Assembly: GCA_037951105.1 (NCBI GenBank)
Contig: JBAMJV010008041.1
Span: forward strand, 1-64,000
Direction: 5' to 3'
DNA length: 64,000 nucleotides
Origin: Echinarachnius parma
Taxonomy: Eukaryota > Echinodermata > Echinoidea > Clypeasteroida > Echinarachniidae
Below are positions 33,043 through 62,875 of the stretch, piece by piece. The notes beneath the pieces are model-generated. The model was not told the DNA's origin. It saw nothing but the letters and a program-made list of their open reading frames with translations, and searched no databases. Each line of letters starts with the position of its first letter. The first letter of the stretch is position 1. A program made the position numbers and the translations under genes.

Positions 33043-33700
33043 TTTTCAGACTTGTTGGGGAGAAGGGCAGGAGGGGTTCTCAGCTTGCTCTGAGGGGGTC
33101 GAGGGCATGTTTGGGGTCACTGCAACAACTGGCAACAGTCATTCATGAGTTAGTAGAGTGCTCTGGTCAGTTGGGGATGTTCTTGGCATAGTTATCACCG
33201 GGGTATCTGTTCTGTGGGAGTGACTGAATTCTCTCTCTCTTTCTTTTCCCAGAAAGTTTCAAGTTAGGGGCTTTTCAGTTTGTCCTGAGGAGGTCTGGGG
33301 CCTGTGTGGGGGCACAGCAGGGCAAGAGGTCGTCCATGTGTAAGGTAGTGTGCCACGGTCAGCGGATGGAGGGATGTTCATGGATCAGTTAAAAAGTTAT
33401 CACCAGGGTATCTGTTCTGAGATTATGACAGAATTATTTCTCTTTCTATTTAGTTTGTCTTAAGGAGGGTCAGGGGCCTGTGTTGGGGCACTGCATGGTA
33501 AGAGGTCGTCGATGTGAAGGTGAAGGTAGTGTGCCACGGTCAGCAGAGGAAATTCCAAACATTGTTATCTTTTCCGTAGGTCTTGCAGAATTCCCTCTCT
33601 TCCTTTCCCCTGAAGCTATTCAGTTTGTCCTGAGGAGGTCGGGGGCCTGTGTGGGGGCACGAGGCCATGCGTACGTAATGTGCCACGGTCAGCGGGGGAT
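33043..33700 (-). pseudogene. Four decayed tandem copies of the TRPC4AP terminal exon end
   Basis: Blocks at about 33,043-33,190, 33,266-33,370, 33,446-33,545 and 33,613-33,700 repeat the stop-proximal half of the true last exon (33,788-33,946). Shared text includes 'cagtttgtcctgaggaggtc', 'ggggcctgtgtggggg' and 'gtgccacggtcagcg'. The acceptor side and first half of the exon are missing in every copy. They lie downstream of the stop codon, in what should be 3' UTR. Confidence 0.85.
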
Positions 33701-33787
33701 AATCTTGGGATAAATATCACCAGGGTGTCTTTTCTGTAATAAGGTCTTCAGAATTCTCTATCTTTTTCCCCCAGGGTTGTTGGCTCT

Positions 33788-33946
33788 TCAGTTTGTCCTG
33801 AGGAGGTCTGGGGCCTGTGTGGGGACACTGCATGGCAAGAGGTCGTCCATGTGTAGGTAGTGAGCGACAGTCAGCGGGGAGTGGAGGTTGGTGCTGACCA
33901 ACAGATTGACCATGTCCTTCCACTTGCTGAAGCTGATGCAGGAACT
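33788..33946 (-). CDS. TRPC4AP: TRPC4AP terminal exon
   Basis: Acceptor CCTTCCAG before 33,946; encodes SSCISFSKWKDMVNLLVST and ends ...PDLLRTN with TGA at 33,788-33,790. The first part is the conserved TRPC4AP C-terminal block. The tail after 'YLHMDD' differs from vertebrates and lies in the sequence that was tandemly copied downstream. Confidence 0.88.
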   Translation of the reverse strand, partial: SSCISFSKWKDMVNLLVSTNLHSPLTVAHYLHMDDLLPCSVPTQAPDLLRTN

Positions 33947-36900
33947 CTGGAAGGGGAAAAGCAGGAAAAGAGACGGGAAATTAAAGACAAGTTGATTACT
34001 ATCTTTATAAACATTAACTTGTAAATTATACAAATGAGTTATAAAGTATAATTTGAATTATATTAGTAACTGATACTAATATAATTCAAATTATTTGTTT
34101 AGTCACTTACAGTGAAATACAAGTCAATTTCATTGTGTGAAAATCTGCCTAAGCACGTGGAATATGCTGCTCTCTGAAAACTTGTATGAGGTAGTACGTA
34201 ATAGAATTTCATTTTTTGTTATTTAGTCTTTGGACAATGCCTCGCAGCTGTATGGCACAAACAACTGGCAAGGGTGAATATCACCGGACCAGCAGCGGCA
34301 GCCACACAGCCTTTTCTCATTTCACTAGCCCTCTGCTGAATTTGATTTGTCAAGTATGGAATTCCTCTAGCCTATAGCTAGCAATGAATAATTCATGATG
34401 AACAGAGAAGTGATTGTGAATATCAATGTGCCACTCAGATGCAAAAAGGCCTCAGCTCTTCTTCTATTATACCCGTTGTATTCTTTCTTTTCTGATATTT
34501 AGACACAAGGGCCCCGTTGCAGAAAGAGATACAATCGTTTGTAAGTTACAACTAATTGCAAGTCAGATCATGTGTTCTAAATGCGCAAATCTGATTGGTT
34601 TAAACACGCAACTTCTCTGACTTACAATTAACTGTAACTTACAATCGATTTGTATCTCTTTCTGCAATGGGGTCATGGTCTTGTTAAAAGGCTAGGTCCT
34701 TGACAGAATAAATTTTAATGTATTCCTTTTTTGCCTTGCCTTTAAGTTATAAATTTGTTTAACCTATTCAGGACTGGTCCAAAATGCCCAGGTTGGAGTC
34801 AATGGAGAGTGCATATTTACCATATTTTAATAATCTTCAGTGGATCAAATATGGATGGTACTGATAACGCAGAGGAAATATTACATTGCGTAATGATGTT
34901 GCAATAATCTTACGGCATTTGCATGCCACTATTAGCTCTGGTTATGTCATTAAATAACAAGAAATACATGTTATATATGTGACAGGATATTGTAAAATCG
35001 ATTATTGCAAAATAATTATATGTAGTATAGTTTTCACTTTAACCCTAATCCCACTGGGTTATTTTGGTCACTTGAGTCCACTGGGGGGGGGGGGGGGCTG
35101 TTTTGGCCCCCCCCTCAAATCTCGGCAACGAATGGACCGATCGACTTGAAAATTGGCACACACGTAAAACAAGTCAAGTAGAATAAGAATATGAAAAAGA
35201 AAAAAAAAATTGGACCATTATTTTTTTTTTTTATAATTAAAATTTTGAATATGCAAATTTTTGACGAATTTGGGAAAAAATTGGGATTTTCATCTAAAAT
35301 CAAAAGAAATTACAGGATTTCTGTAAAAATACTTTCAAATGATGTTATTCATCATATCCATGTTTTTTATGGTGAGTAAATATATCACTAATTTGCATAA
35401 ATATGCAAATTAGTATTCCCAGATTTATCCACATTGTTTTCATTCTTATGTATGTTATTGTTTTCTTGTTGTTGTTGTTTTTTTTAAAGAAGAATTTATC
35501 TCTGAAGTGTGTGAATTCAACTAATAACAAAGAAATAATACAAATTATAATTCAAAGTAACAATTATAACAGATTTGGAGTTTGCATGGCATCGGATATA
35601 GGAATTACATAGAAACCTGTACAAAAATTACATTTTTTTTGTGACGGACGAGCAATTATCGACCTCTAAAATCAGTTCTACGGGTCCGACCGGGTTGAAT
35701 TATATATCAAAACATGCGGGAGACTTGAGAGAAAATAGTCATGAAGTTTGAACGTGAAATTCCAAACGGTCTAGATGCACGTCGAAAAAAACGACAGGGG
35801 GGGGCCAAAAAGCCCCCCCCCCCAGTGGGATTAGGGTTAAAGGGCATCAAGCGTGGGGATGCTACATAGCGGGTCGCCATTTTGAACTGGGTTAGTTTGC
35901 CCCCACCGCATGACACTGAGCTAACGTGCATTACGCACCGTGCGCAACGCGTATGCAAGATGGCGCCGCGCATCTCATTTGACGAATCTGAACTACCTTT
36001 AACTTTTGATTTAGTTGTCTTGGCAGTTACTTAAATTGTTCAAATAATATATTTAATCAGCACATTGTTTTGATTAATTTCAGTCAAAAGAGCACAAATC
36101 AAATTATAAATCAATAATGCATTGAAAACATACCTTCTCCAAAGCACTGCAGTCTTTGTCTTTGTGCAGATAGTGCTCCTGCCAGAAAAACAGCAGCTCT
36201 CTGAAAGAAAAAAACAAACAAATTAAATAACATTTCTTGCTAAATGAAGAAATACAACTCAGGATTGAATTTATTTAAAATGTGTTGAAATCTACTGTTT
36301 GTTTAGTAGATTTTCTTTTTAAAATCTGTGCAACTAGTAATACCTGTAAGATTATATTAACTTGCAATTGTACCATTTCTATCCAGTTCTTATTGTTGCT
36401 TTTAATCCAGAATGTGGACATAAACAACATTAATTAATGACATGAAATAAAACCTGAACTAAAAAGAGTTTCTGGGAAGTACCAAGGGTCTTTATGGCTG
36501 AATTGTTAGACTAGCAATCACAAGGTCACATGTTCAATTCCCTTTGCTCATTGACATTACTTCAATTCATTAATGGTTAGTTTCCCTTATGTTTGAAACC
36601 CAAATTGAGTTGAAATGAATGCAATTAATTAATGATTAATGGTCAGTTTCCCTTATGTTTGAAACCCAAATTGAGTTTAAATTAATGCAATTTATTACCA
36701 ATCTCCATGTCAACAATATACCAAGATTTCATCATAACCATGTGTAATTAATATATTGGACAGCTAATTATTTTTATTGCAAAGTAACAATCAGCATTTA
36801 AAAAACAATCTGACTCCCACATATCAAATTGTAGAAGCATACAAAATGATAGTGACTCCATAATGGAACTGAACAAGAACAAATATTGATAATATATCGA

Positions 36901-39900
36901 TTAATTAAATTAGAATGTGGAGTAACAGCTGCTATTCTTATACTGTAACTTCCCTTGGACAACAAACAACATCCTGGACATCACACTTTATTTCATTTTG
37001 AAAACAAGAGCAGGATATCGCCTCTGATTATTAGTGGGAGACGTACAGTGGAAGTAATCTTCATGTTATTTTGCAATTTTGCCCCCAATGCCCTATTTTT
37101 TTTACCATCAAAGATAGACCTAACAAGCAATCTATGTGTTAAGATTAAAATTTCAATTAAAATTCAATTACAATTTTATTAACACTCTTCATAAAAAAAC
37201 ATTACAACGTACAATATACATGAGAAAGTGACTTTACATAGTAAACGTTCAAAAACACAAACAAAATACAAATTCTGGGAGTGTTGGGGTAGGCAGAAAG
37301 GAGGGATTTCCTTATATGAAAGCCTACCCCTTACACATACTGAACAGACAAAACATACAATAAACACATACTAAGTTACTAAGTTAAGACAAAACCTACC
37401 ATTAAAACACACTAAGTTACACACTTAATATAGCCCTTATTAAGCACTATTTGCTGTACTACTGGTAATGATAGCTTTGGTTTAGTTCTATGGCTTCATA
37501 TTACACTATTACCATTACTACCATCACCACCACCCTCACTCTAAGCACCATAACCATCACTACAATTACCACCATCGCCACCACCATCACCATCACCACC
37601 ACCACCACCACCACCATTACCACCATCATCTCACCATCTTATCATTACTACCACAATGACCACCATCACCAACATCCTCATCGTCATGGTGTCTACCTGA
37701 AGGTCTGGTGTAGAAAACCTGGTCTGTACTGTCTCCGTTTCTCCCCTCTCAGATCATACAGGTAGCAGGGCAGTTCCAAATGACATCATCAAAACCAGAT
37801 CTACTGCTACGAACAACACCACAACCACCACCTCCACCAACACCACCACCACAATCACAACCAACACGGTCAACAACCTAATGATATTCACCTGAAGTTC
37901 TAGAGCAGGAACCCAGGTCTACACTGTCTCTGTTCCTCCCCTCTCAGATCACACAGAAAGCAGGGCAGTTCCAACATACATCATCAACACCAGGACTACC
38001 ATAACCACTGCCACTTCCACCACCAACAACACCACAAGCAAAGCCACAATTACAACCAACATGGTCAACAACCTAACAGAGTGCTGAAGTAGTGATGTCA
38101 CATTCTTTTGATAGAATAAAGTAATGGTTCTAAACAACTTGTCCTTTGATTCAGGCTTTTGGTTATGGATTGAAAGCTAGATGATTACCTTCTTAGCAAC
38201 TGCTCAGTCAGAAATGTCTGGCTTTTCTGTCATGGCTGGCTTTAAAACCAATAACCATGACGATGAATAGATAAGACATCACACTTCAATCCTCGATTAA
38301 GTTCTGGAGCAGGAATCTACCTCTGCACTGTCTCTGTGCATCCTGTTAAGCCCTTTGCAGACAGAGCCGACTTGACCCGATCCGACTGGTTTAAATTAGG
38401 CTAGAAATGGGCCCAGTCGGTCGGATCCGATTCATTGTGTTGAATCGGCACCAACTGGCATCCGACTGTCTCTCGACTGGCAAAATGTGTGTCGCGAGGC
38501 ACTGAAAACTGAGCCGATCCGAATGAAAACCAGTTGGATCGGGTCGAGTCGGCTCTGTCTGCAGAGGGCTTTAGATCATTTTTAATAGCGGGACAGCTCC
38601 AAAACACATCATCAAAACCAGCCCCACCACTACCACCACCAACAACACCATCACCAAAGCCATAATCACAACCAAAATTGTGAACAGACTAATGATATTC
38701 ACCTGAAGTTCTGAAGCAGAGACCGAGGTCTACACTGCCTCTGTTCCTCCCCTCTCAGATCACACAGAAAGCAGGGCAGTTCCAAAAGACATCATCAAAA
38801 CCAGATCTTCTGCTACGAACAACACCACACACCACCACCGCAAAAGCCACAATCAAAACCAACATTGTGAACAGACTAATGATATTCACCTGAAGTTCTG
38901 CAGCAGGAACCCAGGTCTACACTGCCTCTGTTCCTCCCCTCTCAGATCACACAGGTAGCGAGACAGCTCTCCGATCCTGTCGGCAAACATCAGGAAGATG
39001 ACGGTCGTGTTCAGGCAACTCACGTTTTCCTGTGCACAGAAATAACCATTCCCATGATAATAAATATGCAATAGGTTTGCCGCAGCACCATGTAAGAAAG
39101 ATAGCGAATTGGTTGTCCATGGAAACCGATACTTTCAAACAACTTCTGATAATAATAAATATGAATTACCATAATTATGGAAGAGTATGCCAGGAAAGAA
39201 ACAATATTCTCTAGCAAAAAGACACTCATATAAAATGTGTGATACACACTTTTAAATCAAAGGAACCTTTTTTAAATCAAATGATGGTAGAATAAATTAA
39301 AAAATGATAAAAATGGCTTTTTGCACCATTAACCATTTATAAACCTTTATATCCTTTGGAGATTCTGAAATGCATGTAAACATTGTATATAACCTGCAAG
39401 GTTCTTGTAGGCAAGGTGTTAATTACAAATGATGTTCTCACCTGAGTGAGGATCTCTACGTGGATGATGTTGATGAGTTTGAAGATGAAGTTGAGGCGGT
39501 TCTCCCTCCTGGAGATGAACTGCAGCAGACGGCACGACTGCAGGCACCACTCTGTAGAGAAAGAATTCATTACGTTCCAGTTTCAATCATTGAATTTCAA
39601 TCTTATAAAAACAAAGTATACAATACATGTATCAATCATATAAATAATGCAATTGAATAGGAAGACTACAAAAAAGTGATAGAATTGCAGGAGGAACAGA
39701 GTCTCCTTATAATGATAAGCAATACCTCTAAATACTCACCATAGTTCTCTGGCTGTTCCTTCTCAAAGTGTTCAATGGTCAGTGCCAGGCATCTCACAAA
39801 CATGTTGGAATCCACTATGTTCTTGTGCACCAGATCAACAAACTTCTGGAACTGTAAAACGTAAAAATCATAAGTTTAATAGCATTTATGTTTAATGATA

Positions 39901-42900
39901 AAGAAAGCTTCTACAGTTTTTGACTTCTTACTCCCAAGCCATAATTGTGGCAGTTTACAGGCTGGACAAAGTTCATAACCTTGGACTAACTAATCTATAC
40001 TTTAGTCCTCACCTCAGATTAGTTAAACCTATCACTTTAGGCTGGCTTAAAGTCATAAACAGGCCTACCAGAATACACAATTTTAGTCCAGACTAAAGTT
40101 ATCAACTTAGTCGGGGGTTAGTCAACACTTAGTTAGCACTTTAGGCCGGACTAATTTAGTAGAATACCGGCCATAAAGTCAGTATACAAGATGCAAGATG
40201 ATATTGAAGCTGTCACATGTTTTGGAGTCAAGAAGTATGGGAAATACTTTGGAACAATTAATGAGCAGCAACATTTTGCAGGTGCAATGTCAGATCAGTG
40301 CAGTATATTATGGTGAATGACTGTCCACTTGATGTTCAAAATCAATGTTTTAAACCATCTGGGATTTTTCAAAATACAGATAATAATAATATACTAAATT
40401 TATATAGCGCCTAATATGATTGATAATCATCTCTAAGCGCTTTACAATGATAATATTACCCCCGGTCATAGGATACAATGCAAACCAGCACACATTGTGT
40501 GCACCATCTCCCCTCCCTGGGGATCATTCCTTCTAAGCGGCTCATGGGCATTGAGAAGATCCTTCACATAAAGGCTGCTTCACATATATATGCTGCTGTG
40601 ACCTGGTTTTATACCTAACTTAGACTTTACATTATTGATTGTGCATATATGTCATATTTCGTTTAATTTATTTTCCCATTCTGCTATAAAAACAACAGTA
40701 GCAATAAATTAAAACTTGATGTAGTTACAACAACTAAACAGATCTTAAAGGTAAACTAGGTGCACAGATAAAAAGAAGCTTACTAAACAAACAAAAATTG
40801 AAAAGAATTGAATTTAATTAATTTGAATTTAATACTTGAGAATGTGGGGGAATAACCAAAATGCCAGGGGCTTATCAAGGGTTAATTCCAAAACTTTTTG
40901 ATCCAGAAAATGTGACGGTTTATGTTCGCTTGGTCTACACTCAGTTGGTCTACAACTCATTTGGTCTACTACCTGATGCCTTTAACTTCAATTTCCCCAA
41001 CTCCAAACACGATCCCTAACCCAAAACCTAACCCTAATCCACACCCTAACCCTAATCATAATCCATAATTATAATCATAATCCCCCAAATTTATAATTTT
41101 CTAGTAGACCAAATGGGAGTAGACCAAATGGCTGTAGACCAATCGGCAAGTTACCAATGTGACAAACTAAAGAATAAAATCAAAAGAAAACATTACCTGT
41201 TCCTCGCCTACGATGGCCTTGTTGAATCTCTTGAAGGCCAGGATGTTGAACTTCATCAGCTCGGCCAGGAGATCAAAGTAGCTCTGCAGGACCTCCTTGG
41301 AGTGGTGATCACTGCTCAGGATGTGGTGCACAACATGCTGCATGGGGAGATACCACAGAGAGATGATTGGACACCAGTCAAGATTACATGTCAATTCAAG
41401 AAGCATATTTTAAAGTGATACATATTAAAGTAGCTCTGCAGGACCTCCTTGGAGTGGTGATCACTGCTCAGGATGTGGTGCACAACATGCTGCATGGGAA
41501 CATACCACAGAGAGATGATTGGACACCAGTCAAAATTACAATTCAATTCAATAAACATTTTCTTTATATTTTAGGTGAAAAAAAATAATAAAATCAATTA
41601 TTATTAAGAGTGACAAATGGCATGCTAAATAAGAAAATATAATATCATCCTTAAAAGTGTATTCTCCTACTTTTTCCCCATTAAAATTTGCAAGAGATAT
41701 CAACAATTAAACTTATTTATGGTGTAACAATGTAGCAAACAAACATTGAATAAGTTGTACAGTGCAAGTATATATTTTGTAATTGGCAGGTGTTTACATT
41801 TCATGTACAAGAACATTTTTTATAGTTTTTGCAATGTTTAAATCATGTATGGATTATTGTTTGACTTATTCTATTTTTTATAATATTTACATATTTACAT
41901 ACATTTCATTTTCATAAAGGCCACCTGCCAATAGAGACTTTCTTAGGTGGTCTTTGTGGACAAGTGTGACTGTACAACTCAATGTTCTTTTCTTACCTCC
42001 AGCAGGCCCTTCCTAATGAGGAAGGTCTGGTCAGCGTAGGACGTCTTGCCTCGCAGGAAGCTCTCTATGGCTCTGGCCATCCAGAACCTGAAAAACATCA
42101 ATCATCATATTCACGAATATCATTTTTGAGGAGATAAATTAACTGCCATAAATCAGTCTTATAGAACGAATAATGCAATGCACACTCAGTTCCCATTAGC
42201 AGTCGAATAAAATCCTAGCTTTTACTCTAACTCTAGTCTGAATAATATGTGGCAAGATTGGTAGAGCACACTTTCCAATCGTGAGATCCCAAGTTCGAAT
42301 CCTGTGTATGCGCTCCGTGTTTGTCATGACAAATTTATCCACATCTGCTGCTCTCTACCCGGGTGTATAAATGAGGGCCCGGTAGGTACATACAATATAT
42401 GATGGCGTGCATTGTATCCTATGACGTGGGTAATAGTGTAAAACACAAGAGATGACATTGTATCATATTAGGCACTATATAAATCAAACCTATTATAACA
42501 TATTGTTATCATCTCTTAAACATACTTACCAAAATCTAAATCTTATTCTTACTCTAGCTCTAACTAAAATTTGAACTCAAACTTAAATTCCAATTCTAGC
42601 TCTAATTATAACTATAGCAAGTCATTTGTTATATCAATATGGTTTAAAGTAACACATCTATAGTTTGCCTATTCCATGACTGACCTGAAAGGTGACACTC
42701 TATGCTCCTTCTTACTAAATCTTATTAATTTGATTTCTAACTTTAGCTCTAGCCATAGCTATAACTTTATCATCTCTTAACCAAAATCTAAATCTTATTC
42801 TTACTCTAGCTCTAACTAAAATTTGAACTAAAACTTAAATTCCAATTCTAGCTCTAATTATAACTATAGCGAGACATTTGTTGTAACAATATGGTTTAAA

Positions 42901-43174
42901 GTAACACATCTTCAGTTTGCCTATTCCATGACTGACCTGAAAGGTGACACTCTATGCTCCTTCTTACTAAATCTTATCAATTCTAATTTCTAATTCTAAC
43001 TTTAGCTCTAGCCATAACTATAACTTTAGCAAGCCATTTATTATATGTAATAAGGTAGAAACAAAATTTGTTTCGTTTCCAATTACTGACCTGAAAGGCG
43101 ACTCTCTGGGCTCCTTCTTCATCACATCCACCAGCTTGGTCAGGATCCCCTTGGTGCCCTGACATAGCAATGAC
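33788..43174 (-). CDS. TRPC4AP: TRPC4AP / TRUSS, C-terminal part (nine coding exons)
   Basis: Exons on the minus strand: 43174-43091, 42087-41997, 41337-41197, 39851-39740, 39551-39442, 39029-38890, 36200-36134 and 33946-33788. All phases agree; the joined text of about 300 residues ends at the stop at 33,788. It matches the C-terminal half of TRPC4-associated protein (family usual length about 800): 'HHSKEVLQSYFDLLAELMKF', 'FRELLFFWQEHYLHKDKDC' and 'SSCISFSKWK'. TRPC4AP is a helical-repeat scaffold that binds TNF receptor 1 and TRPC channels and acts as a CUL4-DDB1 substrate receptor recognising C-terminal degrons. The N-terminal ~500 residues must lie upstream of 43,174; I could not find those exons. 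Five of the exons have partial tandem copies next to them. Confidence 0.93.
34508..34675. repeat. MITE of the GGGCCCCGTTGCAGAAAGAG family
   Basis: The left arm 'gggccccgttgcagaaagag', then 'atacaatcgtttgtaagtta', is mirrored by 'taacttacaatcgatt' and 'gtatctctttctgcaatggg'. It lies in a TRPC4AP intron and is the best-preserved copy in the window. Confidence 0.85.
35043..35836. mobile_element. TTAA-flanked element with CCCTAATCCCACTGGG termini (piggyBac-like)
   Basis: TTAA at 35,039-35,042 precedes CCCTAATCCCACTGGG; the right end CCCAGTGGGATTAGGG is followed by TTAA at 35,837-35,840. The TTAA duplication plus CCC... terminus is the piggyBac signature. The 794-bp body has no transposase. Internal G-run (35,083-35,097) and C-run (about 35,812-35,823) sit just inside the termini in inverted positions. 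Confidence 0.8.
36134..36200 (-). CDS. TRPC4AP: TRPC4AP penultimate exon
   Basis: 67 nt; acceptor TTTCTTTCAG, donor AAG|GTATGT. Encodes ELLFFWQEHYLHKDKDCSAL then EK. This is the most strongly conserved stretch of the family. The first base completes the Arg codon from the previous exon. Confidence 0.93.
36478..36565 (+). repeat. Possible tRNA-derived SINE fragment
   Basis: 'tatggctgaattgttagac' resembles a polymerase III box A, and 'catgttcaattcc' about 40 bp later resembles box B. The sequence does not fold convincingly as a tRNA, so a SINE head is more likely. Confidence 0.4.
36569..36692. repeat. 65-bp tandem duplication
   Basis: 'aatggttagtttcccttatg' plus 'tttgaaacccaaattgagtt' occurs twice in a row, with minor differences. 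Confidence 0.8.
37490..38800 (-). pseudogene. Tandem partial copies of a TRPC4AP exon with (ACC)n spacers
   Basis: Copies of the 3' half and donor of exon 38,890-39,029 lie at about 37,691-37,775, 37,887-37,975, 38,292-38,345 and 38,698-38,790. Shared text includes 'cacctgaagttct', 'aggtctacactg' and 'tctgttcctcccctctcaga'. All lack the acceptor side. Between them lie CCA/ACC-rich spacers ('accaccacca', 'accaacaacacca') that recur with each copy, so a unit of several hundred bases was duplicated repeatedly. A MITE (38,347-38,573) interrupts one unit. Confidence 0.88.
38347..38573. repeat. MITE with AAGCCCTTTGCAGACAGAGC termini
   Basis: The left 'aagccctttgcagacagagc', then 'cgacttgacccgatccgac', is mirrored by 'ggatcgggtcgagtcgg' and 'ctctgtctgcagagggcttt'. 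The interior repeats 'ccgatccga/cggatcgg' motifs. Confidence 0.85.
38890..39029 (-). CDS. TRPC4AP: TRPC4AP exon (ENVSCLNTT...)
   Basis: 140 nt; acceptor TGTGCACAG, donor TTCAG|GTGAAT. Encodes ENVSCLNTTVIFLMFADR and on to 'GFLLQNF'. Its 3' half has been copied at least four times in the intron to the left. Confidence 0.92.
39442..39551 (-). CDS. TRPC4AP: TRPC4AP exon (WCLQSCRLL...)
   Basis: 110 nt; acceptor TCTCTACAG, donor CTCAG|GTGAGA. Encodes WCLQSCRLLQFISRRENRLN and 'IHVEILTQ'. No copies seen. Confidence 0.92.
39740..39851 (-). CDS. TRPC4AP: TRPC4AP exon (FQKFVDLVHKN...)
   Basis: 112 nt; acceptor GTTTTACAG, donor TATG|GTGAGT. Encodes FQKFVDLVHKNIVDSNMFVR to 'EQPENY'; the spare base forms a Glu codon with the next exon. 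Confidence 0.92.
39950..40180. repeat. Possible degraded inverted-repeat element with TTTAGTCC motifs
   Basis: Repeated 'actttagtcc', 'ggactaa' and 'ctttaggc(t/c)gg' motifs lie in both orientations within a TRPC4AP intron. The ends are not sharply defined. Confidence 0.4.
40383..40610 (-). repeat. SINE fragment, opposite orientation to 42,232-42,490
   Basis: 'atttatatagcgcctaatat', 'aagcgctttacaatg' and 'cggtcataggatacaatgc' match the reverse complement of the 3' half of the SINE at 42.3-42.5 kb. Confidence 0.65.
40930..41142. repeat. MITE whose termini are triple TTGGTCTAC repeats
   Basis: The left end has 'ttggtctac' three times (about 40,930-40,972); the right end has the inverse 'gtagaccaa' three times (41,104-41,142). 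Between lie degenerate 'ccctaaccctaa' repeats resembling the telomere motif and an 'ataatcataatc' tract. Confidence 0.75.
41197..41337 (-). CDS. TRPC4AP: TRPC4AP exon (HVVHHILSSD...)
   Basis: 141 nt, phase 0 on both sides; acceptor CCCCATGCAG, donor GAACAG|GTAATG. Encodes HVVHHILSSDHHSKEVLQSY and 'FNILAFKRFNKAIVGEEQ'. A copy of its acceptor-side part with upstream intron sits about 153 bp away at 41,429-41,560. Confidence 0.93.
41429..41565 (-). pseudogene. Partial copy of the TRPC4AP HVVHHIL exon
   Basis: It repeats 41,276-41,412 almost exactly: acceptor side of the exon ('aagtagctctgcaggacctc' to 'aacatgctgcatggg') plus upstream intron. The donor-side half is missing. Confidence 0.9.
41997..42087 (-). 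CDS. TRPC4AP: TRPC4AP exon (FWMARAIESFLRG...)
   Basis: 91 nt; acceptor GTTTTTCAG, donor CTGGAG|GTAAGA. Encodes FWMARAIESFLRGKTSYADQ and 'TFLIRKGLLE'. No copies seen. Confidence 0.93.
42232..42490 (+). repeat. tRNA-derived SINE
   Basis: 'tggcaagattggtagagcac' is a box A region and 'ccaagttcgaatcctg' a good box B, spaced as in a tRNA. They are followed by a body with 'gtgtataaatgagggcccgg' and 'tgtatcctatgacg', and a 3' 'ggcactatataaatc' tail. A reversed partial copy lies at 40,383-40,610. Confidence 0.8.
42528..42990. repeat. ~254-bp tandem duplication with a TRPC4AP exon end
   Basis: Two units repeat 'ccaaaatctaaatcttattc', 'ttactctagctctaact', 'aattccaattctagctct' and 'ttgcctattccatgactgac' in order. 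Each ends with a decayed donor side of exon 43,091-43,174 ('actgacctgaaaggtgacac', 'gctccttctta'). The third, intact exon edge is the real one at 43,091. Confidence 0.88.
43091..43174 (-). CDS. TRPC4AP: TRPC4AP exon (SLLCQGTKGILTK...)
   Basis: 84 nt; acceptor GTTTTGCAG, donor TTTCAG|GTCAGT. Encodes SLLCQGTKGILTKLVDVMKK and 'EPRESPF'. Copies of its donor side lie at about 42,677 and 42,930, and of its acceptor side at about 43,283. Confidence 0.9.
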
Positions 43175-43224
43175 CTGCAAAACAATGCATGCAAACAAGA
43201 GGTGTATTAGGGACATGAAAGGTC

Positions 43225-43378
43225 TTAGCTTTGGACCCAAGTTCTTTGGACCAGATCTTAGTGCTGCATCAGTCAAAACATAAGGATCCCCTTGGTGCCC
43301 TGACATAGCAACGACCTGCAAAACAATGCATGCAAACAAGAGGTGTATTAGGGACATGAAAGGTCTTAGCTTTGGATC
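43225..43378 (-). pseudogene. Partial copy of TRPC4AP exon 43,091-43,174 (acceptor side)
   Basis: 'aaggatccccttggtgccct', 'gacctgcaaaacaatgcatg' and 'caagaggtgtattaggga' at 43,283-43,365 repeat 43,142-43,226. This gives a second acceptor upstream of the real exon. Confidence 0.9.
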
Positions 43379-48527: not shown

Positions 48528-48602
48528 GGAAACCTCATTATAACAAGGTAGTCGGGACTATCGATTTGACCTCGTTATAACCGGAATCTCGCTATAAGTT
48601 AA
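48528..48602. repeat. Fragment of the TTATAACAAGGTT MITE family
   Basis: 'cattataacaaggtagtcg' and 'cctcgttataaccgg' resemble the element at 57,382-57,545. Confidence 0.5.
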
Positions 48603-49208: not shown

Positions 49209-49398
49209 AAAGGAAAAGTCCACCCTGAAAATAAGTTGGTTTTAATAGAAGCAGAAAATGTTTCCTCATGGAAAATTAATAAATTAAAAAAATAGGCAAT
49301 ATATTTACAAGAAGAAATTTTTCACTGTCACGTTCCTCTCTTTTAATTGTTATGCCATTATCTTAACTAACTTAGATTTAGGGTGGACTTTCCCTTTA
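49209..49398. repeat. 190-bp MITE with AAAGG(G/A)AAAGTCCACCCT termini
   Basis: The left end aaaggaaaagtccaccctga and right end agggtggactttcccttt are inverse copies. No coding capacity. Confidence 0.85.
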
Positions 49399-50980: not shown

Positions 50981-50986
50981 TCGCAG

Positions 50987-52257: not shown

Positions 52258-52303
52258 AAATGTCAATATATTCTTTTTATCTCTCTGTATTTGTTCACTG
52301 TAG

Positions 52304-52464
52304 ATGCCGTGGAGTACTCAAAGCCAAGGCTAGCCAAGTTCTGGTACTATGCCAAGGTTGAGTTGGCCCCACCCACGCCGGGCGATCTCCCTGCCATCCA
52401 GAAGGGCTTCTCTGACATCGTAAAGTCGGCCAGGACGGGCAAATTCGCTAATCTTACAGTGAAG
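52304..52464 (+). CDS. ATP5MG: ATP5MG exon 2
   Basis: 161 nt; acceptor TTCACTGTAG, donor GTGAAG|GTGAGT. Two bases (AT) complete a codon with the unlocated exon 1. Encodes the conserved 'YSKPRLAKFWYYAKVEL' block through 'KFANLTVK'. Confidence 0.93.
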
Positions 52465-53616: not shown

Positions 53617-54817
53617 ACAGATTATCCCAATTGGTCCCCGTCATCGTAATCTAATTTTTGTGACCCAAATTTGTATAAATATTTTGCCTCGTTGAGTGAA
53701 CTTAGTAGACATGGTGAAGCTTCATACAGCACAGCTATGACTTTTATCCAACCATACTTCTTTGCACGTGGCTAAATTTTATAATGGTTTGCCACTTTAT
53801 GTGAGGGAAATGGCGATGAAGCTACAATAGTACAAACCTTGCAGCTATTTATGGGAATTTTACCCTACATATATTGCCTGAAATCAAATTTCTGTGCAAT
53901 TTTGTTAGCCACTGTTTTATTCAGAGCATATCATCTGTACACTTTGGTAATACTGTACTGCAGAATTGAACATTGTATCTCAAATGCAGTGTAGAAAAAT
54001 GGCTCATTGTATGAAAATGCACTTTGTATTCAATTAGAATACCACATAGGGTTGTGTAATATCGTACACTTTACAATTCTCTTTAAAGATTTCATTCATC
54101 GTAGAGTTTGAATACTCAAAGAACCAGATTTAACCCTACTTACTTGTTTTTACCCTCAATGAGAGTGAAGTAAAATGGGTGATAAAGCATGTTTGTTCTA
54201 TTCAAAATTCTACTCTTGATGAAAACAGGACAAAAATCGATTCCAATTCTCCCTATCAATGACATTTTGTAATGCAGTGTTGATAACAAACTAAAATGAA
54301 TGTTGGTGATGGATTGATTCAGTATGGACTGATGCAACAAGCATGTAAAATGGAATTGTGTGAAATTCACCAGTTTGTAAGTTTATTAAAAAGAGTTTAT
54401 TGAACCAGAATATGAAATAGTTTGTTTTGTGTTGTATCTGACAATGTAAAGTTATTACATGATGTGCCTTAGTGACTGATCTGAAGTGCCCTTTTGAAAT
54501 TTTAATTAACATGTGCTTAGATGGGAATTCCACCAATCAGAGATCATTATTCATTGGTAATGCTAAAAGAATTGGACCAAATCCCATTTCCCCCAAAACC
54601 ACACTAGGTACTTAGTAAGTTCAATTCTAATTCTATTGAAGGCGAAGTAAGTAACACAAAGTTTTCTTAGCCGCTAACTTTGGTTATATGGATAAGCATG
54701 TATTACCTACTACATATAGTAGTTAACCCTAGTTGGCAACTAGCTGCAAACCTTTTATCATGTCAAATAGAATTAGAATGGAACTAAAATAATGCCGCTC
54801 TATAAATATGTGACCGG
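53617..54817. other. No gene; 3' flank of ATP5MG
   Basis: AT-rich sequence after the ATP5MG stop codon, presumably 3' UTR in part. No exon or clear repeat. Confidence 0.4.
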
Positions 54818-56600
54818 CTATAGCAAAACCCTGCACTTGTCAGTATAGTCTATCAGGTTATGTAAAGTAGCAATTTTTTTTGCTATAATCTTGGAAACAG
54901 TTTTTAATTTGGTATAAATACATTACTGATGAGAAAAAGTGATGTTTCCATTTTTTATTTTTGGTCCCAGGGTGCATTTTGGCGATTTTAAAGATAATTA
55001 GCTAATTTGCATATTTGTGAAATAACGTCAGGGGTCATTTTCTATCTAGGAATAGTACAATATTGATAAAAACTAGTATTCTAGGGTATTTTGAGGCAAG
55101 GATTCCATTTCCGGTGCTCGTTTGTAAGTGCTGTATGGGAAACACTCTGAAATCCAAGATGGCTTCCCCTAATTTGCATATTTATGAATATTATTGATTT
55201 TCAGTGGCTACAGCCCCTAATAAGCAATAATTCCGGATTATTATTTGTCAGTTATGTTCTAAGTATGTATTTAAGATATCAAAGATGAATTGCCATCGTG
55301 GCAACCTCTAGCAATGCATATTATTTGCATAATTATGTATTTTACCTAATTTGCATATTCCCCCAAATCGAGTATATTGGGAACCCAGCAAGTAAAAAAG
55401 ACAAGTAATACGGTACCACTTTTCCAAGGTTTTAGGGGGCAACGAATCCATTCATGATACTTATTTACCTGTATCACCTCGGCAACCCACGTAAATCCAA
55501 GATGGCCGCATTTGTCATTTTAAAGTAAATAATGCTATTTGCTACTTTAATGCCATTTAATTTATAAAAGTATGATTTGCTTACTGTAAGCAAATAACTA
55601 CATTGTGATTCAAGTATTGTAGTTGCTCATTCCAATAATTACAACTCAAAACATTATGATATCAATCTAATATAACCGAAATAATATAGTCGTGTATCAT
55701 AACATGTGTAATTTAGGGAGCAGTCATCTTGGATTTGAGATGGATGCCATGGTGATACAGGTAAATAAGTATCATGAATGGATTCGTTGCCCCCTAAAAC
55801 CTTGGAAAAGTGGTATTACTTGTCTTTTTTACTTGCCGGGTTCCCAATATACTCGATTTGGGGGAATATGCAAATTAGGTAAAATACATAATTATGCAAA
55901 TAATATGCATTGCTAGAGGTTGCCCCGATGGCAACTCATCTTTGATATCATAAATACATACTTAAAAAATAACTGACAAATAATAATCCGGAATTATTGC
56001 TTATTAGGGGCTGTAGCCACTGAAAATCAATAATATTCATAAATATGCAAATTAGGGGAAGACATCTTGGATTTCAGAGTGTTTCCCATACAGCACTTAC
56101 AAACGAGCACCGGAAATGGAATCCTTGCCTCAAAATACCCTAGAATACTAGTTTTTATCAATATTGTACTATCCCTAGATAGAAAATGACCCCTGACCTT
56201 ATTTCACAAATATGCAAACTAGCTAATTATCTTTAAAATCGCCAAAATGCACCCTGGGACCAAAAATAAAAAATGGAAACATCACTTTTTCTCATCAGTA
56301 ATGTATTTAGACCAAATTAAAAACTGTTTCCAAGATTATAGCAAAAAATTTCACAACATTTATTCATACTACATTAGGGGATATACTAGTAATTCATGTT
56401 TTGAAGAAATGGGCATTTTAAGTTCACATAATGTGTGTAAAAGACTTATGATTGTAAAATTGAAACAATCATATATCTTCACCAATTATTGACCAATTTG
56501 TTCGAACAAAGCATCAAATGAAAGCTTGTGATGAGGCCTTTCTAATAGTATGAAAATCTAAATTTTGATTTTTACCGACGAGTGCAGGGTTTTGCTATAT
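54818..56600. mobile_element. 1.8-kb palindromic (foldback) element
   Basis: The left end 'ctatagcaaaaccctgcac' and right end 'gtgcagggttttgctatat' open two arms of about 650-700 bp matching at high identity. Paired blocks include 'aaaaagtgatgtttccattt', 'gattccatttccggtgctcg' and 'ataatccggaatt'. The unpaired centre is about 55,515-55,720. The right arm carries about 200 extra bases near 56,350-56,570. The arms contain several 'atttgcatat' motifs. No open frame of note. TA-rich ends suggest TA targeting. Confidence 0.88.
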
Positions 56601-56724
56601 ATGGATCCATTACCAACCATGACATGGGACATACATGTACTGTACATCATTTACTAGGCAAGCTACATTCAGATACATGTACCTTGAAAACAATGATAAA
56701 TAATTGACCATGGATATATGAAGG

Positions 56725-57380
56725 TGTGTTTCATAGGTACATGTTTAGAGTAATGATTGCAGGATGTCTATATGTATGTGTGTGTAGTTTATACTTTTGG
56801 TATGTGTTGATGTTCTACAGTTTAGTGTGTATGTATGTGTGTGTAGGGGGTGGGTGCTGCAGGGGAGGTGGTGAATGGATAAAAGAAATACTTGTGTACA
56901 AATTAAATTCTCGTACATGTAGTAGTATCATAGTCTCTCTAATAATACATTACCAAATGGCATACTACATCTAAACAACCATGTGTACAAGTACCAGTCA
57001 AATGTTAGTATATTACCATTAACAATTCTTGGCTAAATGTTGCCAATATCAACGTAATTTGAAATCGTGCCCCTTAACAACCCCCTTATCGGCAAACTTT
57101 CCACTCGTATGAACACAAATACAAGCTATCATACTATTTAAATTCCCTGGCTTACTTGACCTGTTCAAAACAATTTGATTTTGGTATAACATATGCTCCG
57201 TAGGTCCCAGCATGAATATTGTCGGAGCCTGAATGGGTCGAGACACATTACTGAGCCTCTGTTGTGTTTTTAATTAAATTTTTATTGTGCTTTGTATTTG
57301 GTCATAAAGCAAAAACATTGTACAGACATCTAAACCACACCCTGCAACATGCACATACTGGCATAGGCGCTAGCCTACTT
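56725..57380. other. No gene recognised; TG-rich tract
   Basis: 'gtatgtgtgtgtag' type simple repeats at about 56,765-56,850; otherwise unassigned. Confidence 0.4.
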
Positions 57381-57381
57381 A

Positions 57382-57545
57382 TTCAGTGAAACCTTGTTAT
57401 AAAACTAGGGCCTTGGGACCATGAAAATTAACTTGCTCTCCATAACATGTATCCTGATATATCAGGGTAATAAAAAGACAAAATGCTTGGACCAGCAGTA
57501 TTACCTTGTTATAAGAGGGTTTCATTATAACAAGGTTCTACTGTA
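57382..57545. repeat. MITE with TTCAGTGAAACCTTGTTATAA-type ends
   Basis: The left 'cagtgaaaccttgttataa' is mirrored by 'ttataacaaggttctactg'. A fragment of the same family lies at 48,528. Confidence 0.75.
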
Positions 57546-58260
57546 CATCAGGGTAGGAAATATACGGGGGCTGAGGGTGATTTTGCCCCCTAATTTTCAA
57601 AATAGCCCCCTGAAACAGTAGGTAGCCCCTTATTTTATCATAGGGTATTATGTGAACTATTTTGTGAATATCCATCAGATTGAAAAAGTTGCCCCCTAAA
57701 GTTTAACATTAATTCCTGCATTGCTGTACATGTTCTTTGTATGTGCACATATACTCAAACAAGGACATACACACACACAAAACATTCATGTGCATGTACA
57801 AACACTAAGCACAACATTATTACACACCTCAACACACACAGAACCTACTAAAAATTGCACATACATTTTCTAAAGGGCTGTTTAGGCTTTTCTTTCAGGT
57901 TGCAAAAATGACACATCTAAGACTCCCACCATAGACGTATGTGTGGTAGATCCTAATTTGTTGATGGCCAATACAAGTTCTTAGTCATTGGCACCCGGTC
58001 CAGTATCAGTGACAAAATTGCACAGGGGCTCAGGGCGATTTAGCCCATGAAATGCCCAAAAGAGCCCCCACGAATGTGCATAGAGTTCAATTCAAAACAA
58101 ATTTTAGAGTGCCGTTTTCATGCAGGCAAGCTTGAAAAGTAGCCCCAGAAAAATATATTCCCTGCCCCGGTATTGGTCTAGTAACCCGTTCCCTACGAGT
58201 TTATGAAATCCCCATAGACTTTGTACACAACCCACTCGGTTCCCGTGGTCAAGGGGTTAA
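57546..58260. repeat. GCCCCC-rich diverged repeats and a dispersed repeat
   Basis: Two related blocks (57,550-57,720 and about 57,990-58,175) carry 'tttgccccctaatttt', 'agccccctgaaac' and 'gtagccccagaaaa' motifs. A copy of the 43.9-kb dispersed repeat follows at 58,186-58,258. Confidence 0.45.
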
Positions 58261-58887
58261 AATAAATCAGAACATTATATATATATATGTACTAAACTTA
58301 GGCAAAATCAAAATCACAGAGGTTAGCATTTTTACAAAATGTTTTATTTTGTACATTATTTCATAATATTTGTACAAACAAAACATACACTGTACTACAA
58401 TTTTACCTGTTCAATAAATGCCACGTTTGACATGTAAATAAGAGATCAACAATGTACTGTAATCGGTAACAAAATACTAATACTTAGTTTTCTCCATAAG
58501 CATTGATCAAACCTATTGAGAACATTTCTGTATAGCTTGGTGTAAATGCTATGATACCATTATTATTCAAAGAAAAACTTGAGTTCCGGTGGATAAGATT
58601 TCATTTCATCTAAATCTTGTGGAATCCCATGTGTACCAAATGCAATTTACATTTCTCTTGTACCTTGTTATTTGGCTAAATGGTAATATTAGAATGAAAT
58701 GGGTGTTTATTTGTTTTCTTAAATTGTCTCCCTACCTTATAAAAAGCGTTCCACAAACGCTTTCCATAAGTCAAAATCAATGAGCAGCTGTAGGTGGTGT
58801 AATTTTACATACATTTTCACTTTTCATAGAAGGTGAACAGTGTTACTTTTCTCTGCAACTATCACAGATCATTGATATTGGTATATG
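58261..58887. other. No gene recognised
   Basis: AT-rich sequence; no supported feature. Confidence 0.4.
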
Positions 58888-59238
58888 CAGGGCTCCACAC
58901 ATTTTTTGTCAGTGGCCCGGTCGGGCCAGGAAAAAAACTTCTTCCCCTTTTCTGCTGGCCCGAAAGAAAAAATTACTGGCCTGAAAATTTAATTTCATGA
59001 ATACACTTTTAACTAGGGTTAGTTACTATTCAAAATATCACTCTTACCTGATCAAACCAGTGATTATTAATGAAGCATGACATGGAAGAAAACAAGATTT
59101 TCTAATTTTGTCAATGTCGGGTTTAAAATCTGCTTGCCCGATCAGGCCACCAAAGTATGACTTTTATACATTTTTGCTGGCCCAAAGTGCAATTTTACTG
59201 GCCCCGGGCCAGCGGGCCAGTGCGAGTGTCGAGCCCTG
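58888..59238. repeat. MITE with CAGGGCTC termini and GGCCCG/CGGGCC interior
   Basis: The left end is 'cagggctccacacattttt' and the right end 'agtgtcgagccctg'. Inside, 'cagtggcccggtcgggccag' and 'tggccccgggccagcgggcc' are opposed, with further 'ctggccc' motifs between. Confidence 0.75.
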
Positions 59239-59323
59239 GGCTGGTATATGATTGAAGTCTCAAATATAATTTGCAGAAAAAATTTAATGAAGTTAATGGA
59301 TCACTTTAACCCTTCAGTTTTAA

Positions 59324-59682
59324 AGGTGCACCTGTAAAGTGTCCGATATTGCCCAAAATGACATTTGAGACTTCAATCCTGTACCAAAATCATTGTAAGA
59401 TATGTCCGAACGATGTGTGAAAGTTTCATTGAAAAAGAACACTGCTTTCCTGGTTAAAAAAAAGCGAAAATATGCGTCAGCTATTACAACGGACGTTTAT
59501 TAGGTTTATGACCGTTTGTTAAACGCTTTTGAGCTGAATGATAGATATCGTCATACTAAAGGGGCATTTGAAAAAATCTAACCCTATTTTATTCTTCTCT
59601 TACCATAAGCTAAACACGGTAGAAGAGAAACGAGGAAGCTCCAAGTAATTTTCGTGGAGTTAGACACTTTACAGGCCTCACT
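59324..59682. mobile_element. TTAA-flanked MITE (AGGTGCACCTGTAAAG)
   Basis: TTAA at 59,320-59,323, then AGGTGCACCTGTAAAGTGTC; the right end GACACTTTACAGGCCTCACT is followed by TTAA at 59,683-59,686. 359 bp. Confidence 0.85.
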
Positions 59683-59759
59683 TTAATGGAGATTTGCTAT
59701 TCTAAACCTGACAGGGATTTATTTTTGAAACATTTGAATTAAGTAAATATCACTCCCAC

Positions 59760-59945
59760 CTTGGAGGGGGTTAGAATGTACCTCGGAGTGGTAGGGTTGG
59801 AGGGGGTTCAAATGTACCACGGAGTAGAGGGGAGGAGGGGGTTCGAATGTAGCTTGGAGTGGTAGGGTTGGAGGGGGTTCAAATGTACCACAGAGTAGGG
59901 GGGAGGAGGAGGTTCCAATGTAGCTTAGAGTGGTAGGCTTGGTGT
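59760..59945. repeat. 36-bp G-rich minisatellite, five units
   Basis: Units start 'ggagggggtt(c/a)' with 'aatgta(c/g)c' and 'ggagt(a/g)g' at about 36-bp steps; alternate units resemble each other more, suggesting a 72-bp higher-order repeat. Confidence 0.75.
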
Positions 59946-60213
59946 TGGGTCTTATCTCCTCCTTTCTGCTTCATTATTTCTATCATTCATCAAACTTGTT
60001 TGTGACATATCCATCATTGTCAGATTGTAAATACTTGTATCTGTCCATCAACGACGTTTAACTGTATCCACGATTTTGAATGCCGCGCTATCATCAAACA
60101 TGGACCCTTTCCTTGAGCATTTGCTTGAATGTCTCTGATCATACATTTTCATGTGCGTGAAATGTAGAAAAAAGCACGGCTGAAGTATTTCAGACTTGGA
60201 TGGAACGTCGTCG

Positions 60214-60326
60214 TCATCGAAGACCGAGCCTTTCCTTCTCTCTCTGCTTCTTCTTCACGGAGCTGATGTCCCTGTCTTTCCAGGTGCTCTTCAGCAGCTT
60301 GATCGGACGGTTCCCAACATATTTAC
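60214..60326 (-). CDS. RBM42: RBM42 terminal exon
   Basis: Acceptor CATACACAG before 60,326; encodes (G)KYVGNRPIKLLKSTWKDRD, 'ISSVKKKQREKERLGLR' and stop. Entry in phase 1 fits the preceding exon. Confidence 0.92.
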
Positions 60327-62659
60327 CTGTGTATGGGGATTAGGGGGGTGAGAGAAAGTTTCCACACATTAATAACAATGATAGTAATTAATACAAGGCA
60401 TTATTCAAATGTATGAAGACAGTTACAAAAGATGCATTGTATTTCCATGTGCTCTTCAGCAGCTTGATCGGACGGTTCCCAACATATTTACCTGTGTATG
60501 GGGATAAGGGAAAGTTTTCATACATTAATAACGATGATAGTAATGAATACTTGTACTGTACCTTTAATAAGACGGCATTATTCAAATCACTTTATTCAAG
60601 ATGAGTTGATGGTCTGAATACAGGCAACCACTTTGGGACTAGTAATATCTCCTACTCATAAACACAGATGGCTTTTTAGATAAGGATCAATGTCTTTGGG
60701 TAATGTACATGTATGAAGACAGTTCCAAAAGAAGCATAGTCTTTCCATGTGCATCTTCAGCAGTTTGATCGGACGATTCCCAACACATTTACCTGTGTAT
60801 GGGAATGAGGGTAAGAGTAAGATTTTTTTAAAATCATTGTAATACTTAGAGCAAAGATGATTTATAATATGAAAACTCTGCCCAAAGGCTATTTATAGCA
60901 AACATTTTCCAGAAGGATAATAGTCCTAAAAGGGCACTTGTCTGGAAACCCGGCGGTGTCACTTCATATTCAAAGGTAGCCTCGTTCTCATGGTAAAAAT
61001 GCCCCCCCTATTTACATGTATATCCCCTTTTTAACACGAAAACAGGTACAAATTGGCAAACAAATATAACCCAAATTTGTGCATTTCGAGTACACATCAA
61101 CCAAAATGCCCCCTTTTAAAGACTTAAAGACTTTTAAAGTACACAGATGAAATAAAATGTGTAGCCCTTCGCGAAAAGACCCTATTTTCTCATTTCGCAA
61201 ACATTTTAATGATATTTGTACCCTTTTTATTCATCTCCGCAAACAAAATCATGAAATATACAACCTTTTTTTCAATTTCTGTCTGTTTACGAACACATGA
61301 GAAAATTTACCCTTTTTTCAAGAAATTGTGAACGATCATGCATACATATAGCCACTGACACTCCCGAGTCTGGAAACAATACAATAAGGCCATGAAAAAT
61401 AAATTGTTGCATTGGCATAAACCGCCAGACACTAAAAATATCGCCGACCCTAAAGATTTTTTTGTTTTTTATCCGATTGCGATTGCGATCAATATCTTTA
61501 TGTACATCGAGGCAAAAAATCGCTATCGCGTGAGTATCGCGCTGCATTCGCAATCGATATTTGCTGCGCTGAAAACCCGGAAGTGTTATGGACAGAATGG
61601 CTTTTTTCCCACTAAAATAGTATGCGTTTCGAGCGGTTTTGGCCAGCACCACCGTTTATATGTGTGTGTGTGTGTGTGTATGTTTGTGTGTTTCAGTGCC
61701 TGCGTGTGCGTTTGAGTGTTTTTTGCGAATCCTGCGAAAAAGAAAAAAAAAAAAAAACCTACCTACCTACCCTAATTTTTGGTTGCCCGTTACTCCAATG
61801 CAACATTTTTTTTTTTTTTGCCTAAGTACATGTATCTTACCGTTCCAGTCTTTAATTGCCTGCATGTAGCATCTCGGATCCTTGAAGCTGACAAAGCCAT
61901 ACCCCCTCGATTTGTTGGTCCTCTTATCCCGAACAATCTGTAAGAACAAAAGCAAGGAATTATGAAACATGTGAAAGTTGAAATAACTAACAAATTATAA
62001 AACTACATAGAGTGTAGTACTATAGACAACTGAGCAAATGAATCAATTAATAAATGAATGAATTATGAGCAAATGAAAGAAAAATTGAATATATTTTGAT
62101 GACAACAATAAAAAGTCTATGATCACCATCCTCCTCATGATCATCATCACATCATATCATCATCATCATCATGATCATCGCCATCATCATCATCATCATC
62201 GCCATCGTCAATCATCATCATCATCATAATAATAATCACTATCATAATCATACACTTTTAGAACTCTAAATTTTCAATTTCAATTTCAATTTTATTTCAC
62301 ATCTCTAAAAAACAACATACAAATTTCAACAAATTACATACATATAGATATAATTTATACATTTGGTGTGGTATTACAGCGGATGTGGGGGACCTGCAAA
62401 GGATATTAAATCTTGTTGAGGCAAATCCCTTTTTTTAAGTATTTGCAATGAATCGAACAGCATATTATTATTATAGCGTTATATTCATGTATCTATTTAC
62501 AAAAATCAAAAGTACATGTAAATACATATTACCTTGCATTTCAAGTAGCTAGGGTAGCCGCCAAACACTTTTGTCAGCGTATCCTCCGACACTTCATTCA
62601 TCTTCATCATCGTCATCATCACCACCATTGCCATCATCGTCATCATTATCATCATCACT

Positions 62660-62710
<51 letters not shown>

Positions 62711-62875
62711 GTCATCATCATCATCATCACCATCATAATCACTATCATAATCATACATTCTTAGAACTCTAAATCACCTTGCATTTCAAGTAGCTAGGGT
62801 AGCCGCCAAACACTTTTGTCAGCGTATCCTCCGACACCTCATTGCCCAGATCACCAGCAAACAGTCGGTAGTCAT
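60214..62875 (-). CDS. RBM42: RBM42, C-terminal RRM (last three coding exons)
   Basis: Exons 62875-62778, 61937-61841 and 60326-60214 (minus) join in frame, giving about 100 residues ending KERLGLR with TGA at 60,214-60,216. This is the RRM and C-terminal tail of RNA-binding motif protein 42. RNP2 is 'YRLFAGDL', RNP1 is 'SRGYGFVSF', and the end is 'GNRPIKLLKSTWKDRDI' plus a Lys/Arg tail. RBM42 binds RNA, is linked to hnRNP K and stress granules, and associates with spliceosomal particles. The low-complexity N-terminal part (the family is usually near 480 residues) lies beyond the right edge. The first and last of these exons have partial tandem copies. Confidence 0.93.
60430..60800 (-). pseudogene. 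Two partial copies of the RBM42 terminal exon
   Basis: 60,448-60,502 and about 60,744-60,800 repeat the acceptor and first ~43 coding bases ('caacatatttacctgtgtat', 'cagcttgatcggacggttcc'), then diverge after 'tccatgtg'. Both lack the basic tail and stop. They lie upstream of the intact exon and so offer decoy acceptors. Confidence 0.9.
60840..61800. other. RBM42 intron with TE-like and simple-repeat sequence
   Basis: 'tgcccccc' blocks, a CpG-rich part at about 61,470-61,580 ('gattgcgattgcgatc', 'gcgtgagtatcgcgctg'), a (GT)n tract at about 61,662-61,690, poly-A and 'cctacctaccta' runs. No exon. Confidence 0.45.
61841..61937 (-). CDS. RBM42: RBM42 exon with RNP1
   Basis: 97 nt; acceptor TTCTTACAG, donor AACG|GTAAGA. 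Encodes IVRDKRTNKSRGYGFVSFKD and 'CYMQAIKDWN'. Confidence 0.94.
62110..62757. repeat. (ATC)n microsatellites flanking a partial RBM42 exon
   Basis: ATC/CAT-rich tracts at about 62,120-62,245 and 62,600-62,757, both followed by a shared 'ataatcactatcataatcat' and 'ac(a/t)ttcttagaactctaaat'-like sequence. They belong to the duplicated unit that contains the exon copy at 62,531-62,604. Confidence 0.8.
62531..62604 (-). pseudogene. Partial copy of an RBM42 exon with its own donor
   Basis: It repeats 62,776-62,849 with one or two changes, encoding NEVSEDTLTKVFGGYPSYLK then CK. It ends in donor AAG|GTAATA (the real exon has AAG|GTGATT). The acceptor and 'DDYRLFAGDLG' part are replaced by an ATC microsatellite. 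Confidence 0.92.
62778..62875 (-). CDS. RBM42: RBM42 exon with RNP2
   Basis: 98 nt; acceptor TTTACCCAG, donor AAG|GTGATT. Encodes DDYRLFAGDLGNEVSEDTLT and 'KVFGGYPSYLKCK'. The two first bases complete the Asp codon from an exon to the right. Confidence 0.93.

Follow-up and report, generated by a model that had tools for sequence, protein, structure and literature searches.

What process leaves partial copies of an exon's edge in tandem beside the exon, with the exon itself intact? The question is raised by a 64,000-nucleotide stretch of Echinarachnius parma DNA (assembly GCA_037951105.1, contig JBAMJV010008041.1, positions 1 to 64,000; here called the window), in which exons were annotated within 32-64 kb. 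Arrays of such copies lie there in three genes: TRPC4AP, of which the 3′ part is present (eight exons on the minus strand, 33.8-43.2 kb), ATP5MG (two exons, plus strand), and RBM42 (three exons, minus strand). We consider the arrays to be, probably, a case of exon stuttering, in which tandem duplication across an exon edge would be followed by exchange or conversion with the exon part as its anchor. Hron et al. (2026, PMC12954441) described exon stuttering, or sequence stuttering, on the dot chromosomes of the chicken; a literature search that fell short of most subscription papers found the terms in no further paper and gave this one close match among possible precedents.

The proposed process starts from a short tandem duplication, with units mostly ~110-260 bp apart, that runs from inside the exon into the neighboring intron and copies the exon border together with the splice site and a length of intron; this stage is evident in the sequence. 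Arrays would then gain and lose units and be overwritten through unequal exchange or gene conversion, both among units and among alleles, the exon part, held constant by selection while introns diverge, serving as the homology for misaligned exchange. Because selection keeps the exon part constant, edge-bearing arrays would stay recombinogenic and recognizable for longer than purely intronic arrays, and we hypothesize that this exon anchoring causes the excess of arrays at exon edges. Former copies and the functional edge would swap places now and then, and the copies would be mostly nonfunctional by-products.

Geometry of the copies

The three genes were identified by family matches (TRPC4AP, DUF3689/PF12463, E 5.7e-68; ATP5MG, ATP synthase g, E 1.1e-28; RBM42, E 4e-40). 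An open frame runs through every one of the 13 exons annotated in the window, and the internal exon ends carry AG and GT. TRPC4AP is found on two more contigs of the assembly, C6829 and C3232, and RBM42 also on C5210; a second ATP5MG locus was sought and none was found. Two PDB searches for TRPC4AP relatives yielded no relative, one being empty and the other giving a single unrelated weak match.

Partial copies that lie within 4 kb and match with E ≤0.001 were listed for the three TRPC4AP loci, ATP5MG, and RBM42. Forty-six of the 53 reach one exon end, seven reach no exon edge, and none has both. All 28 copies with the 3′ end lie downstream of the exon (12 of them are stop ends of terminal exons) and 17 of the 18 with the 5′ edge lie upstream, i.e., 45 of the 46 edge-bearing copies have tandem geometry. 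Best-pair spacing in the edge arrays, including those of the chaperonin genes described below, was 107-261 bp; the exception is the array at the last coding exon of TRPC4AP (Th), where the best pair, 522 bp apart, lies several units apart. Mutually exclusive or alternative exons were rejected, since a whole-exon duplicate with both splice sites was seen in none of 71 copies (the 53 listed plus 18 from chaperonin genes).

The one-sidedness of the copies is geometric, because any tandem duplication running from exon to intron leaves one whole exon; the exon stays whole through the geometry of the duplication. A first-pass annotation of the window had proposed tandem duplication with a breakpoint inside the exon, which is borne out in several genes, the five chaperonin genes included. 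Its further suggestion, that only duplications sparing one full exon are tolerated, is superfluous, and tolerance cannot enrich edges over introns because introns should tolerate duplications too. Every copy that it listed in TRPC4AP, ATP5MG, and RBM42 was located. Its seven clusters are all real, but the affected edges number eight, because the exon at 43.1 kb (Ta) bears both donor-side and acceptor-side arrays, and the array at 33.0-33.9 kb involves no splice edge, because the copied part is the coding end plus stop codon inside the terminal exon.

Frequency of arrays at exon edges

Self-comparison of the window, with microsatellites masked, gave 15 tandem arrays, 10 in 32-64 kb and five in 1-32 kb. 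Eight of the 10 cover one of 26 exon ends (one of the eight only a stop end), and the remaining two lie at 36569-36697 and 59761-59942. Random placement over the 32 kb produced a mean of 2.4 when full spans were used (P 0.000165) and 1.1 with unit lengths, with eight or more in 0 of 200,000 draws. When splice edges only are counted, 7 of 10 arrays qualify, against a mean of 2.4 over the 32 kb (spans, P 0.0014) and 1.9 with unit lengths confined to gene regions (P 0.00055). Taken from the window alone, the edge excess is suggestive to strong, its strength varying with the null chosen.

A four-gene test combined ATP5MG and RBM42 with TRPC4AP from C3232 and EFL1 from C6829; unit lengths were assigned manually in it, as were one exon of TRPC4AP and the limits of several EFL1 exons. 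Eighteen of 23 arrays were on an exon end, compared with 10.6 at random (spans, P 0.0011) or 6.3 with unit lengths (18 or more in 0 of 100,000 draws). EFL1 (PF25118), which adjoins TRPC4AP on C6829:118900-134000, resembles that gene in bearing edge arrays, at three of its exons, together with a stop-side array on the last one; it is no independent draw, because it was noticed through reading frames inside arrays.

Chaperonin genes gave a sample chosen without regard to repeats. An assembly-wide search for the family PF00118 returned 63 exon matches. Ten loci had several such matches, and five of these, picked as compact (53.5 kb; G+C 36.8-39.5%), were fetched before the repeat search. A partial copy was present within 2.5 kb for 12 of 25 model-placed exons, about four of which have doubtful limits, and none of the five genes is without such a copy. 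The 18 copies comprise five with the 5′ edge upstream, five with the 3′ edge downstream, none with both edges, and eight others. Half of the arrays (13/26) cover an exon edge versus 6.2 (spans, P 0.0025) or 3.7 (units, P 0.00001) at random; by unit length, this holds for 0/5 arrays below 100 bp and for 13/21 longer ones. Visual inspection turned up another five chaperonin exons within arrays, which had little Pfam support (one weak PF00118 match, one weak match to an unrelated family, and three with none) and were excluded from the counts. The introns clearly also hold local repeats, and the edge excess overall is two- to three-fold, which upholds the earlier view that duplications are denser at exon edges than chance would give.

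Versions of the genes and apparent exchange of roles

The versions compared are contigs of one assembly, which we tentatively take to be alleles. Copy numbers differ between them. The TRPC4AP exon Tc has one acceptor copy in the window, four on C6829, and three plus a partial remnant on C3232; in the same order, the Ta donor has two, none, and one, and the Tf donor four, one, and one. In RBM42, the R3 acceptor has two copies in the window and three on C5210. For R1, the single donor copy of the window was not found on C5210, where the intact exon is followed by GTAATATATG. The Ta acceptor duplication was not found on C6829; the window and C3232 both have it, and an identical 47-bp filler marks its junction on the two. 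Copy and intact exon, 98.9% identical over 94 bp in the window, differ more on C3232. Unless the loci are paralogues, these differences would be polymorphic changes, and they point to unequal exchange or conversion among units and alleles.

The intron flanks suggest, in addition, that copies and functional edges have exchanged roles. At Tf, the 130 nt of intron after the functional C6829 donor are 99.2% identical to the intron after a window copy, whereas identity with the intron that follows the functional donor in the window is only 81.0%. At Tc, the 95 nt before the functional C3232 acceptor are 95.8% identical to the stretch before a C6829 copy and 87.9% to that before the C6829 functional exon, and the intron at a C3232 copy is 94.7% identical to that at the C6829 functional edge. 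The functional edge appears to be a different unit in different versions. Other functional edges keep their partners (see below), and a mixed pattern of this kind is what unequal exchange or conversion within the exon part, if occasional, would be expected to leave.

Table 1. Intact exons with adjacent arrays and their partial copies in the window
Feature	Position	Strand	Remarks
Th stop-side copies (4)	33620-33697, 33452-33544, 33275-33378, 33080-33156	-	73-90% identity
TRPC4AP exon Th (last coding exon, stop included), intact	33788..33946	-	Open frame and AG acceptor; DUF3689 gene
Tf donor-side copies (4)	38703-38767, 38299-38343, 37892-37956, 37697-37766	-	GT kept in 3 of 4
TRPC4AP exon Tf, intact	38890..39029	-	Exon limits (frame, AG/GT)
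TRPC4AP exon Tc, intact	41197..41337	-	Exon limits (frame, AG/GT)
Tc acceptor-side copy (1)	41424..41489	-	Exon bases 1-66, 98.5% identity, AG kept
Ta donor-side copies (2)	42937-42965, 42685-42713	-	GT kept
TRPC4AP exon Ta, intact, arrays at both edges	43091..43174	-	Exon limits (frame, AG/GT)
Ta acceptor-side copy (1)	43283..43315	-	AG kept
A2 candidate sixth, older copy	near 50985	+	Read by eye only
A2 upstream 5′-part copies with AG	52158-52212, 52011-52060, 51875-51929, 51558-51593	+	
A2 fifth upstream copy, beginning at exon base 5	51741-51779	+	
ATP5MG exon 2 (A2), intact	52304..52464	+	Family match and exon limits
RBM42 last exon R3, intact	60214..60326	-	Family match and exon limits
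R3 acceptor-side copies (2)	60438-60491, 60739-60792	-	AG kept
R1 donor-side copy (1)	62533..62598	-	98.5% identity, donor GTAATATG
RBM42 exon R1, intact	62778..62875	-	Donor GTGATTTAG; exon limits (frame, AG/GT)

Some further features of the window may be recorded. One unit of the Tf array encloses an inverted repeat resembling a miniature inverted-repeat transposable element (38348-38571, 53-bp arms), and similar sequence is present on C6829. R3 begins at 60326 with GTAAAT after CAG, i.e., the acceptor abuts donor-like sequence, and this is kept in the copies at 60491 and 60792; an acceptor abutting donor-like sequence is the arrangement of recursive splice sites. A long inverted repeat occupies 54876-56348 (arms of ~629 bp, 96% identity), and minus-strand reading frames at 11791-13371 may encode NACHT and death domains, whose motifs they resemble.

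Alternatives, known systems, and implications

Several observations weigh against exon-anchored exchange. With arrays confined to gene regions and counted by spans, the splice-edge total is 7 against a mean of 4.1 (P 0.049), and the density above chance that the first-pass annotation had asserted, which holds over the 32 kb, is marginal under this null. A local match was also obtained in 194 of 600 random non-exonic windows of the five chaperonin loci, a set that includes introns inside exon-edge arrays; compared with the 12 of 25 exons matched, this only partly excludes that tandem units are equally dense throughout introns. EFL1, once its exon parts were masked, had one edge array and three intron-only arrays. 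In two comparisons the functional edges pair best with each other, Tc between the window and C6829 (96.8%) and Tf between the window and C3232 (100%). Just one junction was inspected in detail. Either conversion or crossing-over could be at work. The TRPC4AP loci, three in number, could be paralogues, or else haplotypes from a pooled sample. The window copy of the gene loses synteny with C6829 and C3232 at ~45.4 kb (45377-64000), ahead of its upstream exons; beyond that point those contigs carry the upstream TRPC4AP exons and the window has ATP5MG and RBM42 instead, through either a rearrangement or a contig mis-join.

The strongest competing explanation is that neutral tandem duplications arise anywhere, those at edges appearing commoner through a conserved exon that keeps pairs recognizable about twice as long. 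The off-edge arrays (5/23 in the four genes and 13/26 off the chaperonin exons placed by hidden Markov model), the matches in random non-exonic windows, and the stops and frameshifts in copies given below would all fit it. We nevertheless find it rather unlikely: random placement fails for the five chaperonin genes, and with exons and exon-part copies masked, 14 of the 21 remaining intron arrays still adjoin exons (TRPC4AP counted on two contigs). The gap between exon and intron divergence also exceeds, by our own reckoning, the two-fold difference that conservation of the intact exon can produce. Between copies, exon part and intron differ by 6.2% versus 29.6% at Tc (28 pairs), 13.3% versus 33.6% at Tf (6 pairs), 2.7% versus 10.8% at A2 (3 pairs), and 20% versus 42% at R3 (1 pair, a ratio of about two), the intron values being perhaps inflated where the alignment took in weakly homologous sequence; the values for A2 and R3 come from alignments slightly out of register.

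Selection on the copies as alternative acceptors, donors, or short exons is very improbable. AG is retained in 17/18 5′-edge copies and GT in 14/16 3′-edge copies of internal exons, but local alignments that reach an edge favor intact edges. Relative to the intact exon of the same contig, substitutions at codon positions 1, 2, and 3 number 77, 95, and 207 in the 53 copies and 44, 30, and 91 in 16 chaperonin copies. The ratio of changes at third codon positions to those at first and second positions, which would speak for function, is 2.41 (confidence interval [CI], 1.97-3.23; 12 exons), or 2.23 when non-CpG sites are pooled (CI, 1.84-2.89; 24 exons), for which we reckon a neutral upper bound of ~1.75 in neutral copies beside a constrained exon. 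The ratio drops to 1.82 at G/C sites versus 3.43 at A/T sites, and because base composition accounts for part of it, the excess is treated as suggestive; what lies above the neutral bound would fit past time spent in the functional position. A present function is argued against by the in-frame stops (11/54 copies; 8/16 in chaperonin genes) and frameshifts (15/54 and 6/16), by the single edge that copies hold, and by the variation of their number between contigs.

An assembly artefact, with divergent haplotypes joined head to tail, could draw on the several divergent versions of one locus that the assembly retains and on the synteny loss at ~45.4 kb, yet it is very unlikely because independent contigs carry arrays with differing copy numbers, the units are short with partial exons, as many as several diverged copies stand in one array, the 47-bp Ta filler is identical on two contigs, and copies occur in all five chaperonin loci.

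Exon stuttering may be set beside known systems. In concerted evolution, tandem repeats are homogenized through unequal exchange and gene conversion; the arrays share with it the change in copy number and the occasional greater likeness of units within one version (Ta acceptor), and differ in that one of the units serves as the functional edge of a coding exon. Intron gain by tandem genomic duplication, in which a duplicated exonic AGGT segment becomes a new intron (PMC3443670), likewise involves intragenic tandem duplication that doubles splice-site sequence; compared with the part of that paper on which we draw, the duplicated piece here crosses an existing border, with no new intron and no split exon.

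In chicken, according to the portions of PMC12954441 used here, a lateral exon part with its donor or acceptor is repeated as an imperfect tandem through the adjoining intron while the coding exon remains intact, the source lying within one base of the exon border in >90% of cases and copies numbering 1 to 44. Affected introns vary in length between chickens in 183 of 192 cases (95%). Stuttering there is found in 115 genes and mainly on the GC-rich dot chromosomes (190 of 236 introns; 3.4% of dot-chromosome introns), and in other vertebrates it was not found except in gerbils, for which the data are not shown. Our arrays look like the same phenomenon in an AT-rich genome in the defining features tested: partial exon copies with a splice site in the adjoining intron (46/53 reach one exon end, 12 of them the stop end of a terminal exon, and 10/18 do so in chaperonin genes), imperfect tandem clusters with blocks of tens to hundreds of bases, intact coding exons, and length variation, here as copy numbers differing between contigs that are presumably allelic. 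The GC-rich setting, an association and not part of the definition, does not apply, the window having 36.9% G+C and the chaperonin loci being similarly AT rich. The 12 of 25 chaperonin exons suggest a higher density than the 3.4% of introns in chicken, the two measures not being like for like. Role exchange between copy and functional edge is a feature of the E. parma arrays unlike the chicken description in those portions of the paper.

It is possible, though we put it forward tentatively, that exon stuttering is ongoing throughout the E. parma genome, with many exons lying beside arrays of their own edges and with functional splice edges interchangeable with the copies and occasionally replaced from this local reservoir by exon-anchored recombination. 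If so, exon stuttering would be no peculiarity of GC-rich bird microchromosomes but would occur in very different genomes, and its cause could be tested in an assembly where diverged versions of one gene stand side by side. Stuttering would also be a trap for gene annotation and haplotype purging. The arrays would act as a permanent supply of splice sites, both decoys and replacements, and would make introns vary in length, and exon conservation itself would, via selection on exons, drive the instability of introns.

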